The position numbers were made by a program, and so were the translations under genes. Below are positions 3,253 through 57,783 of a stretch of DNA of 64,000 bases, one piece after another. The notes under the pieces were generated by a model. It searched no databases and was not told the DNA's origin. It saw only the letters and a list, made by a program, of their open reading frames with translations. The stretch comes from Daphnia pulex. Taxonomy: Eukaryota > Arthropoda > Branchiopoda > Diplostraca > Daphniidae. The stretch's first letter is position 1; every line of letters begins with the position of its first letter. The stretch spans positions 5,022,001 through 5,086,000 of the forward strand of contig NC_060027.1 of NCBI RefSeq assembly GCF_021134715.1, given 5' to 3'.

Positions 3253-5749
3253 CTACGGCCGGCTTCCAAAAAACGAATCTATCGTCCTTGAGCGCTTGCT
3301 ATCCTTGGCTGCCTTCTTCTGGTTCTTCAACGGCCTCTTCGACGATTTTTTCTCGGCTGTCTGGACTTTCGAATTGTTGGCCAATGAAGAAGTAGAAGGC
3401 TGGGCAGAAAATTCCTTTTGCAATTCGGACGCCAAATGGAAATCTTTGTGTTCTTCGATTTCTTCTCGGAGAAATTGTTGTTTGCACTTGTCACATACAA
3501 CGAATTTATCATTTCCATAACTACCTTTCCTAGCCTCGATTGCTTGTAAAACTTGGCGCTGTAGATGAAGCGGGAGTAGAGCTAGGGTATCCATATCAAC
3601 TTGATTTAAATCTGGAAATAGTTCTTCAACGGAGAATGACTCTTGAAGACCCACCATTTTCAGGGCTGCTGGTTCAGGAACAGATTCTTTAGCTGATTGT
3701 ATTGGAGTGTTTTTGTCAAGGCAACGAGAAGCAAAAAACCCAGTTTTTTTCACTATTCCACAGTTATCTTGATTGGAAATAGGCATTGAACTCATTTCTC
3801 TATGGACTGATACAGGCTCTGCTTCAGTGCACTCTGAAGCAGAGTCGGCTGTATTTGGTTCTGGTGCCGTAATACTTTCTTCTTCAATATCCAAGATTCT
3901 TTCAGTTTCTACAAATTCATTTTCTTCATCCTCCTGATCAGTACTGTTTTCGTTTAGATCATCGTTTTCATGCAATGCTTCCTGTTCTGCATAGGGTTCT
4001 TTTTCCTTGTTGGTTTCAGCACTATTTTTAGTGACAAAAAAGCGATCGATCCTGGAATTATTTTCCAGTTGATCAACAAACTTGCTAGCTGAAACTCCAA
4101 GGCAGGTAACAACCACTGGAACTCTAGTGTTGCCTTGTTTGAAACAAGGATTTTCTTTACTAATAACTGCCAAGCAAGCGTTCGCCATGTGCATTTTTTC
4201 GTATGAAGAAGTCAGAGGAATTGAACGAGTATAAGAGTACGGTCGTATATCGCCTTCTAATCGAACCGTCAGAGTTAATAGTTTTGCCGTTCTATTATTC
4301 TAAAAAAATAAATTTTCAAGGGAAAATATGTTATGCCAACACACGAAAAAGAGGTACAAGAGTGATGGGATTTACCGTTTCCCGGTCTTTCTCGAGTCGC
4401 TCAGAAACTTCAGCACATAACTCTTCTAGCCAATGGCTTATTTTCTCCCGAGAATCTAGTGCAGCTAAACCAGTGAAATTTTTATTACAGCCTATGGACT
4501 TGGGCAGTCTGCGGGAGCTGACCGACTCATGATCCACTCCTCGGGCGTACCAGTAAAGCCACGTGCTGAAAGACAAAGATTTCAATAAATATGAGAGGCA
4601 TTTAAAGATGAAAGCGAGAAAACTTACCCCGTCTTACTATCAAAACGTTCCTGCAAGACCCGCTCGGGAATTTTTACGATATCTGCCATAGTAGTACAAT
4701 GGAACTCTTCTCGTAGAACAAGACCAAGTTTACCACCAAGATTTCTAACTTTCTTTAAAGGGAACGTCGTAAAAAATTCCTCAACGGAACGAAAAGGCAA
4801 AACGGTTTGCTTGTTGGGCTTGTTGATGCCTATAGGAAAAAAAAAAGTCATTTTGAAGGCTCATAATAAAAAAAAAGAAAAGAAATAAGAGCATACCACA
4901 AGCTAGTTTCGCCAACATTTTATTGTTGGAAATCCCAGCAGAACAACGAAATCCGGTTTTTTCATAAACAGCAGCGCGCATCTTTTCAACCAAAATAGCA
5001 CCATATGTTAATTTCCAGTCATTATCGTTGCAATTTCCTTCCGATAACGCTTGTAACCACCCGTGTACACCTACGAATTTATAGGAAATATTGTAGTAAT
5101 AGAACTAGAGCATGTAAAATAATGACCGACCTTTTACATCATCTGTGTCGTTCCCCCATCCAACAAAGTAAGTGTTTGGAAGCTCTTCAAGATCGATCGC
5201 AGTGGCTATATTAGTAAAAGTAGGACATTGACAAAGTGAATGACGAATTTCATCAAGCTGAATTTTACTTTCAACCAACCTGTGGAATCTGAAAGCATTT
5301 TATCTATAACCGCGGTCATGTCTATGTATGCTTCATCAATACTGGCGCGCTCTACGACGACACCAAAGCTGCACATCACATCAATGACTTCTTTTCCTCC
5401 ATCCCTGTACCTAGAATTGCAAATTATGAAAATTATATATATCTTTTTTGATAAATTTAGAAAAATACTTTTACCTTGTGAGATCAGCTTTTCCTCGCTG
5501 TTCAGGTACTCTGTAAAGAATGCAATCTGGACATTTTTCCCTGGCTTCATCTCCTCTCATCTGCTTAGTTACTCCTTGCGCTCTAGCTTCATAATTTACA
5601 GAAATAATACCACCCCCTTTCCATTTTTTATACTGCACCACACAGGCAGGTTTTCCTTTGTTGCCAGGATTTTCTCTCTCTTCCACTTGAACATAAAAAC
5701 AGTCCATGTCAATCAAGGCTACAACTCGTTTTTCATCTTCAGCACTCAT
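3253..5749 (-). CDS. POLH: DNA polymerase eta (Y-family translesion polymerase)
   Basis: Translesion DNA polymerase that copies past UV dimers at stalled forks in the nucleus. Seven exons: 5749-5475, 5410-5280, 5205-5131, 5070-4897, 4829-4628, 4565-4376 and 4299-3253. All GT-AG junctions are in phase and give 697 aa (human enzyme about 713). Visible landmarks: the IDMDCFYV metal site near residues 13-20, QYKKWKGGGI near 39-48, YEAR at 53-56, and the SIDEAY catalytic pair D117/E118. Thumb motifs follow (SAGISNNKMLAKLA, then INKPNKQTVLP). A C2H2 ubiquitin-binding finger (UBZ) uses C618, C621, H633 and H637, and a C-terminal PIP box RTIDSFF lies near 687-693. A second PIP-like RIDRFF is near 432-437. 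The start ATG overlaps the stop of the upstream ORF, which suggests translation from one bicistronic transcript. Confidence 0.96.
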
Positions 5750-6105
5750 CTTTTAAGTTTTTTTGATGCACAAAAGTTCAAGTATTGTATCATATCCTCT
5801 CTGGTGGAAGGACTCAATGGAAGATCATTGCTTGATGTGGAACACTGACTATCAATTTCATTGTCATCACTTTTTGACAAAACCAAATTAATTTCCTTTG
5901 TAAGTATTGGTTCTTGAGACTTCACTTGATCAATACCATCGTTCAATTTTCTTTCCAAACAAGGAACTAGTTCTTCGTCTTCACTGTTATCTGGCGACGT
6001 ATCAAAAACGACAAATTTTACATCTGGATCTCCTGCCAGGTATTTTGAGCTGTTTGGAGCAAAATGATACCCTTCGGACCACGTTTTCCCAGTTGTTTTA
6101 GACAT
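5746..6105 (-). CDS. Unknown 119-aa ORF overlapping the polymerase eta start
   Basis: A single uninterrupted 119-codon ORF on the same strand directly 5' of polymerase eta. Its TGA stop (5748-5746) overlaps the polymerase ATG (5749-5747) in an ATGA arrangement. I see no splice donor before the overlap that would remove it. The product begins MSKTTGKTWSEGYHF, has an acidic serine-rich middle (DTSPDNSEDEEL) and ends in a basic tail CASKKLKR. I do not recognise a family. Its length and the exact 1-nt register make a real upstream cistron plausible, with termination-reinitiation or leaky scanning (its own ATG context is weak, T at -3). It could instead be a long uORF controlling polymerase levels. 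Confidence 0.6.
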   Translation of the reverse strand: MSKTTGKTWSEGYHFAPNSSKYLAGDPDVKFVVFDTSPDNSEDEELVPCLERKLNDGIDQVKSQEPILTKEINLVLSKSDDNEIDSQCSTSSNDLPLSPSTREDMIQYLNFCASKKLKR

Positions 6106-6524
6106 TGACTTTTTAAACTTAATAAGTTGTCACATTTAATATTAGTTTAGCATGTATATCTTCCCGAGCAGATTTTTTAATCGGTAAACAACCTACATCC
6201 ACAATTCCACATTGACACATTCCTCTCGAGTTGTCTGCTTGTTAGTTCCCGCCAAAACTTAAACCCGCCATACTTCAACCTGGTGCTTAAGCTACCTCTG
6301 AAGTTCTCATACATAATAAAAATTTGTTTAAAAAATGTTGTTAATCGTTTACATTATTAAAAAAAAGAAATTCGAATATAATCAATCACCAAATACTCAA
6401 TTTACACGGATAATCTGTATGACTGTATGTACTCGAGTCAATTTTGTTATTGAATTTTTTTTTTATTTACTTTCATTACAAATCATGACATTTGGAAGAT
6501 TTCATACAGCGAATTAATATTGTG
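6106..6524. other. Spacer between CCDC97 3' end and polymerase eta transcript
   Basis: This gap should hold the polymerase eta promoter and the 3' end of CCDC97. A minus-strand AATAAA at 6462-6467 lies about 58 nt past the CCDC97 stop. No further coding sequence is visible. Confidence 0.5.
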
Positions 6525-7601
6525 TTAGTCACTATCAAAGTATCGTTCTTCGGCATCTCTTTCATATATGACATCGTCTTTGGGATGTGAAGAATCAATT
6601 TGGCTGTAGTCGAACTCTTCATCACGCCCACTGAGAAAGCTACTATACATACCTTTAAAAAATGGTAAATATTAATCGAAAAAAAAATAAATAAATATAT
6701 CGTAAATAATACTTGATATAAATTCATCGCGGAAGAATTTCTTTTCTTCTTGATCTATATCATCATCATCATCCTCTTCTTCTTCCTCTTCGCAAGCTAA
6801 TGCCTCATCCCAAGCTGATTGATCAGCTCGTTGTTCATTTCTCCTTTTAGAATTCTCAGAATCACCATCTATGTGGGCCATGAAAATTGTTGAAAGATTA
6901 CATAGCTTTGGTTGTTCCTGTTCTAACAATCTTTTTTCATCTGATGACATATATTTCTCAACAAGCTCATGAAATAATATTGGGTTTCTTTTCCTCATTT
7001 CATCCATGCTGAAATATTTCCCTTCTTTTATCATTTCATTCATTGCATGGAAACGCAGGTTTTTAACACTAGTTTGTGTTAATTTATTCTGTTTTTCCAG
7101 CTGCTGAAGATGAAATAAAACTTCATAGTTGTTTTCAAATTGATGAAAGTAAGTCAGGTGATTTGGATTCAATATTTTTCCAAACCTGACTAAGAAATTT
7201 GAAGGACTTGATTTCAACACTGACGCTGCAATCTTTTTCTTCTCCTCAGCTGTAAGTGCTGGTTCATCACGTTGCTGGCTTCTAAAGAAAATATCTTCCG
7301 CTTGGCTATTTGCCACATAAGTGATCATTTGCTCTTTTGCCAAGTTGAGTTCTTCAACATCATTGTCAGTAATGTTGTCACATTCTGATTGATGAGTTTC
7401 TGGTAATGTTGAGGTTTCAGTTTGGTTGAATATAGGTAATTGAGTTGTTCCATTAAGATTTGATATCACAGCATCTTGTTTCCTAGAGTCTTCTCTTTTC
7501 TCAGATGCTGACTGGATCAATTTAGGTGTTTCATGTTTGCAATCACTAAAATCACTTTGATTATCCAAATTGGAACACATACTAACAGAATTTTGATCCA
7601 T
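6525..7601 (-). CDS. CCDC97: Coiled-coil domain-containing protein 97 homologue
   Basis: Two exons, 7601-6713 and 6652-6525, give 338 aa. The N-terminal third is low-complexity and Ser/Thr/Glu-rich. The conserved CCDC97 (DUF2052) part includes FLVRFGKILNPNHLTYFHQF, KNLRFHAMNEMIKEGKYFS and the acidic run EEEEEEDDDDDID. The second exon supplies the typical end SSFLSGRDEEFDYSQID and stops shortly after AEERYFDSD. The family is reported with the SF3B splicing complex in vertebrates, so a nuclear splicing role is inferred by homology only. I chose the ATG at 7601 because it has a strong context (ACCATGG) and follows a short unlikely upstream extension. It is divergent from AIMP1. Confidence 0.9.
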
Positions 7602-30213: not shown

Positions 30214-30332
30214 TTAGGAGCAAGTCATCCACGCGCAGGGGCAAGCGCAAGGAGGTGAGCACGGATAGCAGGGAGTGGCCGAGGGAGAAAGAGCTGGAAC
30301 GCTGGCTCCTGTCGTCGTCACCACTGCTGAAG

Positions 30333-30364
<32 letters not shown>

Positions 30365-32010
30365 GCAGGAGATGAAGGAGGAGGAGTACTCGTCGTCGAA
30401 GGAGGAGGCAGCGACGTCGGCGGAGGAGCCGCAGGAGCGTAAAAGTATCCACCGTTGCTGGAATAGACCACTGTCGGTTGGCAACCAGAAATGCGCACCT
30501 CGTAGACGGGAGCGTGGCCATAGCTGGGCGGATGACTTTGCTGTTGCTGCTGCTGCTGTTGCTGCATCTGCTGCTGGTGGTGATGTTGTTGCTGCTGCTG
30601 CTGTTGGTGGTGCTGGTCAGCGTAATAAGCCTGATAGGCCAGCTCCTCGATGAGCGACAGGGTCTGCCGCCGCTCGTGGCCCATCAGACAGACGGTGGAC
30701 TCGTCGACAACGCTGTAAAGGATCATGAGATAGTCGTACTTGAGGGCTTCGTCGGCTCCGACAAAGTGGTTCCATAGGTAGTTGTCGAGTTTGAGCCGCT
30801 GCTGGCCAACGTCTGGAAAGTCGATAAAGAACCTGGAGCACATGTAGCGCTCAAACGTCTTGATCTGGTCGGGATCGGCCGGGCGGTAGTCCTTGACCAG
30901 CAAGTTGCAATACTTGAGCAATCCGCCGCCGCGGATCTCCTCCGGATTGCGGGTGGCGATCATCTTGTGGTGCAGGTGGTAGTGGGCCTGGCGGAAGTCG
31001 CCGTACACAGACTCGGCCACCACCGTCGGGTAAAACGACTCGCTGATGGGCATCGTAGAGGCGCAGTCGTAGAAGAGCACCAGCGAGTCGAGAATGATCT
31101 GGAACGAGTCGACGGAAAATTCAAATTGGCGCCGCATATTGTGGACGAATTTGAGTTCCACGTTCTTGCCGCGGTGGTTGGTGCCCAGGGAAATGAGCGA
31201 CCAGCGATCGCCCTCAGTCACTTTCACCATCTTGGAGACGTACGCCTCCTTCAGAGAGCACGAGAGCATGCGCGTGCGAGAGACTCCGGCCGGAAGAAAG
31301 TCCAGCAGCGAGTCCAGCACCGCCGTTTTGATGCGGTCGTAGGTGCGGGCCGACGACAAGTCGACGCCGAATATGAGATCCAAATCGTTGTACGCTTGCG
31401 GCTGGCAGCGATCCAGCGCCAGGACGTAAGAAGCCGCTCCGCCATTGATCCGCATGTCCTTGACAGCCACGCCGTCCGCTTCCAGTTTGGCCCGCACCAG
31501 CGTCACCAGGTCGCGCAGGCGCAGCTCCAACGTCGGGAAATTACCCCGGCCGTGGATGCTGACCGTTTCGTTCATCACGTCGTGCACCCTGGACACTTGC
31601 TCGTAGCTCAAAACGGCGAACCGCTGCTGTTGCTGTTGCTGCGCCAATTGGAGCTGCTGCTGCTGCTGGAGTTGCTGCGTCTGCTGGGCCACGGCCAGCG
31701 GTAGCGACTCGGTGCTGCCGCCAGTGACGCTACTCCGGCTAGAGAGCGATCCGCCAGAGACGGAAGCCGTAGAGACCAAACTGACGTCTTCGAGATCAGC
31801 GTCGCCGCCCAGGTCGTAGCCGCTGTCGCTGTCGCCGCTGCTGCTGTGCTCCGACAGAGACTCCACTTCCGTCTCGGCTTCAGCCAACGACAATTTGGCA
31901 GAAGTGAGATCCGTCAATTCGTCAACCACCTGATCGTTGCTGTTGTTGCCGTTGTTGCCGTTCACCACGTCAGAGAGTCGCAACATCTTGAGAGCGTCCA
32001 TCGTAGCCAT
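30214..32010 (-). CDS. TENT5: TENT5/FAM46 non-canonical poly(A) polymerase
   Basis: Cytoplasmic nucleotidyltransferase that lengthens poly(A) tails of selected mRNAs. From the ATG at 32010 the product is 598 aa, longer than vertebrate members (about 390-440), because of an acidic/serine-rich N-terminal extension and several poly-Gln tracts. The catalytic core starts near residue 135: [26 protein letters not shown] near 189-197 and the metal site DLDL near 209-212. Strongly conserved family blocks follow: [64 protein letters not shown] and [14 protein letters not shown]. The frame stays open upstream to 32088, where an acceptor-like TTCAG precedes it, so an upstream coding exon or a TTG start is possible. 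I prefer 32010 for its strong context (GCCATGG). Which vertebrate paralogue it matches cannot be told. Confidence 0.93.
30539..30612 (-). repeat. Poly-Gln/His-coding CAG/CTG repeat in TENT5
   Basis: Imperfect CAG-type repeat encoding runs of glutamine broken by histidine and methionine near the C-terminus. Similar tracts occur at about 30338-30365 (mostly in another frame of the C-tail) and 31620-31685 (N-terminal side). They lie outside the catalytic core and probably vary in length between individuals. Confidence 0.8.
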
Positions 32011-35000
32011 GGCTGTCACGTCAATGCCACCGATTTTCAATTCTTCCAAACGTTTCAGGGCCGTGCCACTCAGTTCCAACGTTCCCGACTGAATTTAACA
32101 AAATCCAATTTGAAATGAAACGAAAAAAAAACAAATTAATCATGTGGAGATGCCGGAAGCTGAAAAATAACAACTTAAAAAATTTTCAATTTTTTCCTCC
32201 TTTCTCTTTATCCATCGATGCCCATCGACACACGAAAAGTGAAAGAGAGAAACTGGCCAGCCACACACAAATCAATTGAAGCGCATCACAGAGAGACAAG
32301 AGAGAAAGAAAAAAAAGTTCTAGAAAAAAGACGGGCCGACTAACTGGGCGGTGCTTATCCAGCGATAACAACTCGGTGCCCTTAGGCCAGCAGATTGTTG
32401 TTATTGTGAGTTGTTGTTGTTGTTGGCTGGGTGGTAGGGGAAAAACCAGTTTTCTCGAAAAAAAAATTCTCTTTTTCTTCTCCTGAACGCACATGCCTGG
32501 ACAAGAAGACACAGACCACACCATCGGCATTAGCCGTGAAATAAACCTGAAACCGCCTCGACTATTCCGCCGTCAAGTTGACATTGACTTGAAGCGACGC
32601 CATCGGTCGTGAAACGCGCATGCCCACCAACCCGCCCCCGCTAAATCAAATCAAATAAAAATAAAAAAAAGTTCCTCTTACACCCAAAAACGATCATCCC
32701 CATCCACACACTCACACAGAGAGAAACGAGAGAAGCGAATAAATAATTCGCACATTTTAGAAAGGATGACCTTGTTTCGGCGTTCACTCTCACTCTCGAC
32801 AGGCGGTCAAACACTTTCGCTCGACCTTAATGCAGCAGCACCATCGTGTGCCAAATATTTGTCGGGACCCGAATAAAAAAAAGCAAAAATAAAGTCAAAT
32901 GAAAAGAAGAAGAAGACTTACCAAAAAAGAAAATGTGTTTCGCGTGACAAAGAAGAGACACTACTAACACTTCACTTTGGGGATAAAATATCGGCAAAGG
33001 AATTAATGATTGCAACGTTCTTTTGAGTCTGTAGAGAGAAAATGTTCCAGAAGTGGCAGACGAGAGATATTATTCAAAATTTGGAGATAACAAAAGAAGA
33101 GAGAGACAAATTGTTTTGTTGGTTGGGTTTGGCTGCTTCCCCTCTCCCGACTATCTCCTCTCCTACTCGCTGTTTTTTCGTTTCGTTTTTTCGGTTGGGG
33201 GATTTAACACATGGGAATGCGCGCACACACCGGAGAGCTGGGAGACTGGCGAGCGACTGACGGCCGTTGCGACGGCGATGCAGACTAGACCCCCAACAAC
33301 ACCCAGAAATGGCCAGAATACCCGCCCACTCTCCCGCAGGGCACCACCACCAAAAGTGGGTGAGGTACAGTGAGTAGTAGTAGTAGTAGGTAGGGGTGGT
33401 GGTTGGTTGGGTGGTAACAGACAATCAGCTGTTTAGAGATACCAGATTTTACCGCCACCAGAGCGCGCTAGTGTCCAGCCAGTACCTTCACCAGTTCCTT
33501 TCGGCTGAACACCGTGAAACAAAAACCGACTTGAATCGACTTGTACATTCGGCATTATACATAAAATATATAAGTTTTACTCGGAATTCCAAGGGGAGAA
33601 GGGGGGAAATAATTATTAGACAACGTCCTTGCTTTGTTGTTGTTGTTATTTGCGCACCACGTGAGGGAAACCGTTTGGCCGCGATTCGATCGACTGGATT
33701 TTTTGAAAAAATGGTTTTTTTTTCGCTTTGGCGGCCTGAATGTTTTCACTGGAGAGCAGGAGCAAGTCGGCGAATCTCGTTATAACTTGAGGCCGAGTTT
33801 TTGACTCGAAGCCCAGTGACTTTGACCTACATCAAATGTATATTTCTAACGTGAAAAAAAGAGAGAGGTGCAGTGTCATCTATTAAGCACTGGGTGAAAT
33901 AATGTTTTGGCACAGTTTGGCCAAAATTTAACAACTTTCACCCACTTTGTGCAGAAAATTTCAAACGAATTTTTTATTCGCCAAATCGTCTTACAAAAAC
34001 AGCCACGCCTCGTATTCATTTCATTTTTCTTTCGACCAAAACACAACCGGATCTTTTTGGTGGTGGTACAGTTTTCTGGAATAACACGAGTCGCATTTGA
34101 TTTTTTTTTTAAACCACTGCCCTCGAGGCGAGTTGGGGAGGACCTTCAACCACTTTCCCTTTTTCTTTACTCCCAAAAAAAAAAACCTTTTTATATTTCA
34201 TTTGCTTCTCTCCCCCAACCAACTGAATAATGGAATCCAGTTACTATCGTCCAGATTGATTTAGGAAATAGTTGGAATAAATCTCAAACGCAGTGAAAAT
34301 GGGACCACTTTGTTGCCAAGTGATTTGACATTTTTCCGACGAATTGCGCGACTCCACCCCGACGAGTTTGGTAATCTGCCCTTGAAAGTCACAAACGGGA
34401 ATTAAAGTCAAATAAAAACAAAATAAAAATAAGCGGAGCTCCCAATTATTTTCCCAACACGACCTATCCCCTCCCTAAGGCGACTCCTGTTTAATTCAAT
34501 CCAGGGGAGGAGTCTAAGCAGCAGCACAGCACGAGCGAAAATTGCGCTAGCCAAAACGGTTTCCATATCCACTTGGAAACAAAATCGTCTACTGCCACAT
34601 ACACACATTTGACCTTCGTACCCACGCAACCCGCCACCACCGTGTGTATGTCGTCTCTCCCACCCCCAAAACAATCAAAACTCAAAATGGACACTTGTTA
34701 TAAGAAAGAAACAAAATATTATCAACTTGTTTTTGTTCCTTCCTGCCATTATTTATAGAAATAAAGAAATCAGACCCCCAAGGAAATAATGAAGAGGAAA
34801 ACCAATTTCTTTAGATCAGCCACTACCACAATATCCTAATCTACGATATTACATTCCGATAATTGCTACAATAAAAACGTTGAGCTCTATCAAGATTGTC
34901 GACCTACCAAAGATGGCGGGTTCGCTGTGCACACACACAAGAGTCGAATCCCTTTGTGTGTGTGGCACATTATTCTAAAGCTTCTTCCTTGCCTTTTTGC

Positions 35001-55380: not shown

Positions 55381-55453
55381 GGGGATGTAGCTCAGATGGT
55401 AGAGCGCTCGCTTAGCATGCGAGAAGTACGGGGATCGATACCCTGCATCTCCA
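55381..55453 (+). tRNA. tRNA-Ala (anticodon AGC), copy 1
   Basis: 73 nt with a full cloverleaf. The acceptor GGGGATG pairs with CATCTCC (one G-T), with A as discriminator. D-arm TAGCTCAGATGGTAGA, anticodon stem CTCGC/GCGAG with AGC in the loop CTTAGCATG, and a T-arm with loop ATCGATA, the A54 form common in arthropod tRNA-Ala. There is no intron and no encoded CCA beyond the discriminator. A T4 run at about 55459 can terminate polymerase III. Confidence 0.97.
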
Positions 55454-55945
55454 AATCCTTTTATTCAAAAATTTTAATGATTTTAAAATTTCACTTAACG
55501 CCTAACAAAATATATGTTTCCGTAACCCATATAGGAGCACTAGAGCAGAGCATGATTTTTTTCCACAGGAATTCTTTACACCTTGCTTTTGAGATTCGCT
55601 CCACTTGAATTAAAGTTTTCAAACTCAACGTTGGATGACATCTGATGTTCACGGGATGTTCCATTAAATCCCACAGTAATTTTTTTCTTTTACACATCTA
55701 TGAACCTGAAAAAATGTATTTAGCTACAATTTTAATTCCAGAAAATTTTCCATTAATCAAATCAATCGTGAATCAACAGGCGCAATAGCAGGAATGTGCA
55801 CACATAATAATTTTTTATGTAGCATTATGCTAATAACTTCTTGTCTATATGTTCATTCTATCATTAGGATTCGGGAACAGGAATACGTGATCACGATTTA
55901 CCTTGCAACGACAAATTATACGTCTTGCGAGTGTCGATGAAGCAT
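55454..55945. other. Spacer between the two tRNA-Ala genes
   Basis: 492 bp of AT-rich sequence. The five bases immediately before the two tRNAs differ, although both follow a GATGAA motif. A minus-strand frame of 68 codons has no domain. Nothing else seen. Confidence 0.5.
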
Positions 55946-56018
55946 GGGGATGTAGCTCAGATGGTAGAGCGCTCGCTTAGCATGCGAGAAGTACGGGGAT
56001 CGATACCCTGCATCTCCA
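55946..56018 (+). tRNA. tRNA-Ala (anticodon AGC), copy 2
   Basis: Identical over all 73 bases to the copy at 55381 and in the same orientation, 565 bp downstream. A T6 run at 56026-56031 is a strong polymerase III terminator. Confidence 0.97.
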
Positions 56019-57783
56019 GAAATACTTTTTTCTCACTTACAGCGACAACTTAACCATGTACAACTCTGAGTGGTTTCTTATTTTACTGTAAAATTATACA
56101 AAAATTAAAATTCCTTTATAAACATAAGAAAAACCATGGAATAAGAAAAGATTAAAAAATTTATAATTTCGGAAATTGCTGAAATTGGAAATTTCGGAAA
56201 ACCACTATCTATAATCGTGCTTGTAGAATAAACTGGAATACTCGGCTAATAAGCTTCCCAGTTTCCAGTTAATTTTGTTGATACTGTTAATACTGTTGCA
56301 ATTATTAGTTGATAATTAATTGATCAGGTTGTTTCCGACTCTTTTTCTGATGGTTTGCTTGACGCAAAAGAAAACGAAAAAAATTGGAAATTTCGGAAAA
56401 TCTCGAAAAATTGAAGGCATATGAAATTTTGGTAAACGTGAAAAAACCCTGGAAAAACCCATCACCAGAATATCCACGCAAAATTTCTGCAGTTTCACTT
56501 TTTAGAAAGAAAGTCGAGAAATAACCCTTGAAACAATTTAGGCTAACACAAAATAAGGAGTAATCAAGATAAGATGTACAAATTCTTATAATTGTAAATA
56601 AGTGTATTGTAAGTGTATTATAAGTGTTGAGTGTTGGTAGTAACGTTTACCGTTTACCACACCACACCCATGCCATTTGATTGTTTCCGTTGCCGTGCCT
56701 TATTACCAATTTTGCATGTTTGGACGGAAGTCAACAGCATTTAGAATGGCAACTTTCTCAAAACCCGAAGACGACAGTTTTTGATCAGTATCCGTCCCTT
56801 TCTGTTACTACAGTTTCAGTTACTCTGACATAGCAAAGTCTATATCTGTAAAGAACATGTGCGGAGAGAAGCTTCAGTCGCAACAGCGCTCAACAGAGAA
56901 AGTTGTTTGGCGAGTTCAAACGATTTCTAAAAGCTAGAGTCCGTATAGAGACATTTTTGGACATACCGAGACTTTATTGTGTGAGGTGCTGATCCCTATA
57001 AATCATACTATATACCAACCATGCCAATTGATTTCACAAGTTTGCGATTTCTAAGTGAAATTTTGGCTCCACCCATCACATCTTCCACAAAAGGCGGACA
57101 AAAGGTTTGAAATTCCGAACCAGTTTGGTTTCGAATCAGTTTTAGATTGTTCGTCTACGAGTATAAACCTCTGAAATTCCGTCCACACCTCTCTATAAGG
57201 CTATACATTTCTGTAATTATCGTTTTTGGGAATTAACAGAACGTCCAGTTTTTTGGTGATAACCTCTACAGAACGTCTAAACCAAGCAAATTGCAAATCC
57301 TCATTTCCAAACTGTAAGTTATACTACACGCCACGCACCCTAACATAATGACGTTATTTGTTCATCTGATCTCATTGTAGTATTGTACGTATATACGTGA
57401 GGTGGCAACTTTTGATCCAATTATCTGTTTGATTTTATTCACTTTCATCGCCTTCTTACTTTTAACTTGAATTTCTCTTTTCGGGTTTTAATATTTTTAG
57501 CAAAGCGTTGCTCTAATATTCTTTGAGACTCGGCAAAATGTTGTACGCTTCTTTGCACAGCGATAATGGGTCATAATGCGCTAAACCGTACACATTTTGG
57601 ATTCTTATAAGGATACCTTTACTAAAAATATCCTATTGTCCATTCTAATCTAAATATATATATTTTTCTTTCAAAGTTTCAATCATTCTCACCTTTGTCC
57701 TGCTGGAATTCCAGCTTATAATTACATCTTTACAATTTTGTTATTTATTAGACACCTTTTGAAGTGAATTTTCACAAGAAGAA
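56019..57783. other. Intergenic region before FLVCR-like copy C
   Basis: AT-rich. The string TTGGAAATTTCGGAAAA occurs twice (about 56185 and 56386). The last few hundred bases should contain the copy C promoter and 5' UTR. No other gene is visible. Confidence 0.5.

Follow-up and report, generated by a model that had tools for sequence, protein, structure and literature searches.

A possible small-protein cistron whose stop codon overlaps the start of DNA polymerase eta in Daphnia pulex

When an open reading frame closes inside the start codon of a DNA polymerase, is it a gene in its own right, and how would ribosomes get past it? The question arises in Daphnia pulex, in a 64-kb stretch of contig C11 that we call the window. 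There an open reading frame (ORF) of 119 codons, ORF1 (5746..6105, minus strand), runs from an ATG to a TGA at 5748-5746. The ATG of DNA polymerase eta (pol eta; 3253..5749, same strand) is at 5749-5747, so the two share an ATGA (5746..5749) and the spacing between the cistrons is zero. The original prediction described this overlap, and re-reading the sequence confirms it. We argue, tentatively, that ORF1 is a real small-protein gene which shares one transcription unit with pol eta, as its first cistron. The narrower claim that ORF1 encodes a protein is a good deal safer, and we hold it to be probable. Pol eta affects mutation and ultraviolet tolerance, and Daphnia serves as a model in mutation research. 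Were ORF1 a true co-cistron, it would be a candidate pol eta partner or dosage device. The pair would then also be a clean natural case of animal ribosomes reaching a second cistron at zero spacing.

The overlap and the coding signal in ORF1

The ATGA cannot carry the argument. Any gene that begins ATGA contains that TGA, so the overlap by itself is uninformative. There are 2,813 ATGA sites in 264 kb of genome, and 10 of them, that of ORF1 included, close an ORF that runs for 100 codons or more. We therefore reject the ATGA as a signal in itself. Just one other ATGA site is followed by a long frame (L011), and by its coordinates it lies within a longer ORF on the same strand.

Length is more telling. 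When local sequence was simulated, 40 of 142,715 points (2.8e-4) had a given frame open over 119 or more codons with an ATG; the points were taken every 21 nucleotides (nt) and hence are not independent. The claim that 119 codons is long for chance holds up. The other five frames of the same stretch contain 7, 13, 5, 4 and 4 stops. The codon-phase statistic of ORF1 is also coding-like, with z 2.89 and a p of 0.002 that is uncorrected for the choice of this codon model, which was built after a first one failed. All 66 wrong-frame controls score lower (maximum 2.67), and the value exceeds the median of 1.97 for 24 coding chunks. This later model was trained on pol eta, the neighbouring CCDC97 gene and 6 of 18 long ORFs (guanine-cytosine, GC, content under 0.46), with at most four chunks per sequence as positives. 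The position-specific base composition of ORF1 gives p 0.011 and resembles that of the adjoining genes. Its N-terminal half carries the signal (p 0.020, or 0.039 against a stop-free null).

The predicted ORF1 protein has an isoelectric point (pI) of 4.64 overall. The N-terminal third has a pI of 8.1, the middle is acidic and rich in Ser, Asp and Glu (pI 4.05), and the C-terminus is basic (pI 9.6). Its last residues are KKLKR, a motif that we presume could act in nuclear import. Pfam yields nothing for ORF1 at E<=10 and the PDB nothing significant (best E 0.25), and there is no paralogue in its own genome, where the sole match is ORF1 itself. A pattern search of prokaryote genomes gave 34 matches, none of them confirmed as a relative.

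The same kind of search in viral contigs gave three matches, of which two were confirmed (L030 and L031, identical across the 801 bases compared). The L030 gene (4815-6263, plus strand of an IMG/VR contig), the one of the two that was scanned, is a phage terminase (Terminase_6C). ORF1 and this terminase share 12 identical residues, TGKTWSEGYHFA, which include the search seed KTWSEGYH. They lie near the N-terminus of ORF1 (window 6093-6058, minus strand) and around the TGKT motif of the terminase, and 26 of the 36 bases agree. BLASTP gives 37% over 63 columns and E 7e-7, a value that covers one comparison of a pair chosen from a very large collection. A search of 50,697 phage records returned 13 weak matches (best E 0.3) with no terminase among them. 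We treat the likeness as probably due to chance, though the 12-residue run is longer than expected.

Pol eta itself is not in doubt. Seven coding exons (5749-5475, 5410-5280, 5205-5131, 5070-4897, 4829-4628, 4565-4376 and 4299-3253) join into a protein of 697 residues, and the six introns are 60-76 nt each. The Pfam domains are IMS, POLH-Rev1_HhH, IMS_C and zf_UBZ, so the Y-family core, the C-terminal IMS domain and the UBZ are all present. The protein matches pol eta structures in the PDB, which we take to be human, with a best E of 6.2e-118. Because the alignment starts at query residue 5, this start codon is real and pol eta needs no extension. This also rejects an assembly error that divides one protein into ORF1 and pol eta. 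The genome searched (133.19 Mb in 13 contigs) has four Y-family loci, namely this gene, one iota-like, one Rev1-like and a fourth on C7. Judged by sequence, pol eta appears to be single, with a reservation for the C7 locus.

A shared leader and two start codons

If ORF1 and pol eta form one unit there should be one promoter in front of both. An exact E2F-type site, TTTGGCGGGAA (6246..6256, minus strand), lies just upstream of ORF1, between it and the end of the CCDC97-like gene. It is the only exact match in the window, where a mean of 0.04 is expected, and 4 of 100 shuffles had at least one. With one mismatch allowed, TTSGCGGGAA has 5 matches against 7.33 expected, which is no commoner than chance. 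The site is a candidate promoter element whose function here we assume, and the promoter search covered this motif and no other core-promoter type. The original interpretation is borne out in part. A small-protein cistron ahead of pol eta is supported by its length, by one codon statistic and by its place behind the sole E2F-type motif found.

We propose that transcription would start downstream of the E2F-type site, which lies near 6250, and that a single promoter would serve both cistrons. An unspliced leader would carry ORF1 straight into pol eta. Ribosomes that miss a weak ORF1 AUG while scanning would go on to the better AUG of pol eta and make less of that protein. Some may also reinitiate, either at the ATGA or once they have translated one of the short internal ORFs. 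Selection would in that case act both on ORF1 and on a low dosage of pol eta.

The contexts of the two AUGs agree with this route. The ORF1 start, AAGTCAATGT, has T at -3, and the pol eta start, TAAAAGATGA, has A at -3. By the Kozak rule as quoted in PMC11291117 the first is weak and the second stronger, as leaky scanning calls for. Leaky scanning also calls for few AUGs before the second cistron, and here ORF1 departs from it, with six AUGs after its own start. Five of these are out of frame and begin ORFs of 1-17 codons, which close at 6018, 5922 and 5814. Because each of these ORFs stops 64 nt or more short of pol eta, ribosomes that start at them could resume scanning.

The mechanism first suggested, coupled termination-reinitiation, fares worse. 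The caliciviral-type UGGGA motif of a termination upstream ribosome-binding site has one copy in ORF1, at nucleotide 15, and none in its last 200 nt, and the RNA fold at the junction is unremarkable (z -0.53). With neither a UGGGA near the junction nor a marked fold, the sequence gives no sign of a tethered restart of the viral type. Nothing specific favours coupling, and leaky scanning accounts for the weak start of ORF1 no less well.

The original prediction also saw no obvious intron, which holds only to the extent that nothing interrupts the frame of ORF1. Between 6260 and 5740 the highest-scoring acceptor is at 5831 (3.8), and one at 6193 scores 3.3. The six pol eta acceptors score 8.2-12.6 on their own matrix but -1.0 to 7.7 when each is left out in turn. 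Splicing around ORF1 is possible because both candidate acceptors fall inside this leave-one-out range. The acceptor of CCDC97, read by eye, scores 1.2, which is below the one at 5831. We set aside a 5' intron at 6196-6118, whose removal would lengthen ORF1 to 131 residues in the same frame (6220-6197 joined to 6117-5746). Its donor is fair (6.5), but neither of the two acceptors open to it reaches even the lowest leave-one-out value (-1.0); they score about -5 and -7. As regards a spliced-leader operon, a nematode SL1 model matched no spliced leader RNA gene, but it was silent in 14 of 14 controls too, and the search was confined to that leader.

It is tempting to go further and make ORF1 an undescribed accessory protein of translesion synthesis, nuclear and under cell-cycle control. 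It would be obligatorily co-expressed with pol eta, and the shared leader would fix a low ratio of pol eta to its partner. We offer this as a speculation that is probably wrong.

Objections and alternatives

Several results count against ORF1 as a first cistron. The first codon model, trained on genes of mixed GC content, barely told real ORFs from wrong-frame ones; its rows for CCDC97, for TENT5 and for one piece of pol eta (4390-4563) had been read out of frame and were left out. The synonymous-only codon score of ORF1 lies under its null, on the side away from coding (p 0.97). Its periodicity reaches only p 0.059 against a stop-free null, and its C-terminal half is without a composition signal (p 0.595, stop-free 0.726). 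Up to five upstream AUGs stand between the E2F-type site and ORF1, at 6220 (G at -3), 6212, 6198, 6153 and 6135; the number that the mRNA carries would depend on where transcription starts. A 33-codon upstream ORF (uORF; 6119..6220, minus strand) is on the message only if the transcript begins upstream of 6220. The sixth internal AUG of ORF1, at 5793, is in frame and leads back to the ATGA. As the title of a 2005 paper by Wall et al. suggests, such an AUG may hinder a second cistron. Splicing from a donor at 6196 (6.5) to the acceptor at 5831 could remove most of ORF1. It must also be noted that many fly dicistronic pairs are described as poorly conserved among Drosophila species (PMC2276209).

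These objections leave room for a scenario where ORF1 is real but pol eta is made mainly from its own mRNA. That mRNA would start inside ORF1 or splice ORF1 out, for example from 6196 to 5831, and the pair would be compact without being functionally dicistronic. Flies offer a precedent. FlyBase release 6.04 has 159 dicistronic pairs, and in just 45 of them do both products apparently come from dicistronic mRNAs and no others (PMC4528330). Ribosomes that have translated a long ORF can also be poor at reinitiating. On the human CASQ2 mRNA, which reinitiates at an overlapping second ORF, the second product is about 82-fold below the first (PMC5972666). The acceptors at 5831 and 6193 would permit the splicing. 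However, the intron from 6196 to 5831 would be 366 nt long, when those of pol eta are 60-76 nt, and the window holds no second exact E2F-type motif. We regard a separate pol eta mRNA as a real possibility, if a somewhat doubtful one.

ORF1 could instead be a long uORF, its peptide without a function of its own and its translation merely lowering the output of pol eta. The weak start context suits such a device. So does the synonymous-only score, which is not coding-like, and so does the lack of a relative in the collections searched (Pfam, PDB, the genome itself, prokaryotes and phages). Yet 119 codons is long for a uORF, and the later codon statistic is coding-like. We consider this explanation unlikely. 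Least credible of all is a chance open frame that is scarcely translated: about 1-2 such cases would occur genome-wide if some 5,000 genes begin ATGA (our estimate from 2.8e-4), but the codon statistic is frame-specific and ORF1 was met in one 64-kb window, not selected genome-wide.

Known two-cistron messages and the surrounding genes

A first cistron ahead of pol eta would have arthropod company. The dicistronic genes of Drosophila (for example Mocs2/CG42503, stoned and mei-217/mei-218) are likewise head-to-tail cistrons on one presumed mRNA. Like pol eta, mei-217/mei-218 belongs to DNA metabolism, where it acts in crossing over (PMC6778797), and its upstream AUG is reported not to be conserved in 11 other fly genomes (PMC2276209). 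The fly genes are backed by transcripts and some by conservation, whereas ORF1 and pol eta are known as a pair from sequence alone. We think it plausible that they are a new instance of the animal two-cistron messages known from flies. Among the papers listed in searches of the open PMC set, none is on a dicistronic or uORF-controlled pol eta.

The likeness to reinitiation systems is weaker. Coupled termination-reinitiation at stop-start overlaps is described for caliciviruses, influenza B and the mouse GAD mRNA (PMC5972666). Unlike these systems, ORF1 has no UGGGA in its last 200 nt, no notable RNA structure and no aspartate-rich C-terminus. Cellular cases without a UGGGA-type motif are known, though in that of CASQ2 the reinitiation is weak (PMC5972666). 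Green algal bicistrons, with in vivo tests at two loci and a synthetic one, are closer. They prefer weak start contexts for the first ORF and, like ORF1 and pol eta, pair a weak first start with a stronger second one; at some Auxenochlorella loci the stop and start overlap as well (PMC11291117). They differ in being depleted in possible starts before the second ORF (PMC11291117), where ORF1 holds its six further AUGs.

The upstream neighbour is the CCDC97-like gene (6525..7601, minus strand; Pfam CCD97-like_C). Its stop is at 6527-6525, its last exon having been read by eye, and an AATAAA lies near 6467. It stands head to head, about 0.5 kb away, with a plus-strand gene at about 8098 that we take to be AIMP1-like, and the two possibly share a promoter. 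Farther along the window, a long GC-rich ORF with polyQ runs (30214-32079, minus strand) presumably resembles a TENT5/FAM46 nucleotidyltransferase. Two tRNA-Ala(AGC) genes (55381-55453 and 55945-56019, plus strand) have the same Rfam score and are separated by about 0.5 kb; they are likely a tandem duplicate. Elsewhere in the genome, contig C13 (15,333 bases) carries COX1. Short COX1-like fragments occur in nuclear contigs, at C11:6254056-6254226 (L008) and as matches on C4 and C3, and these are possibly nuclear copies of mitochondrial DNA.
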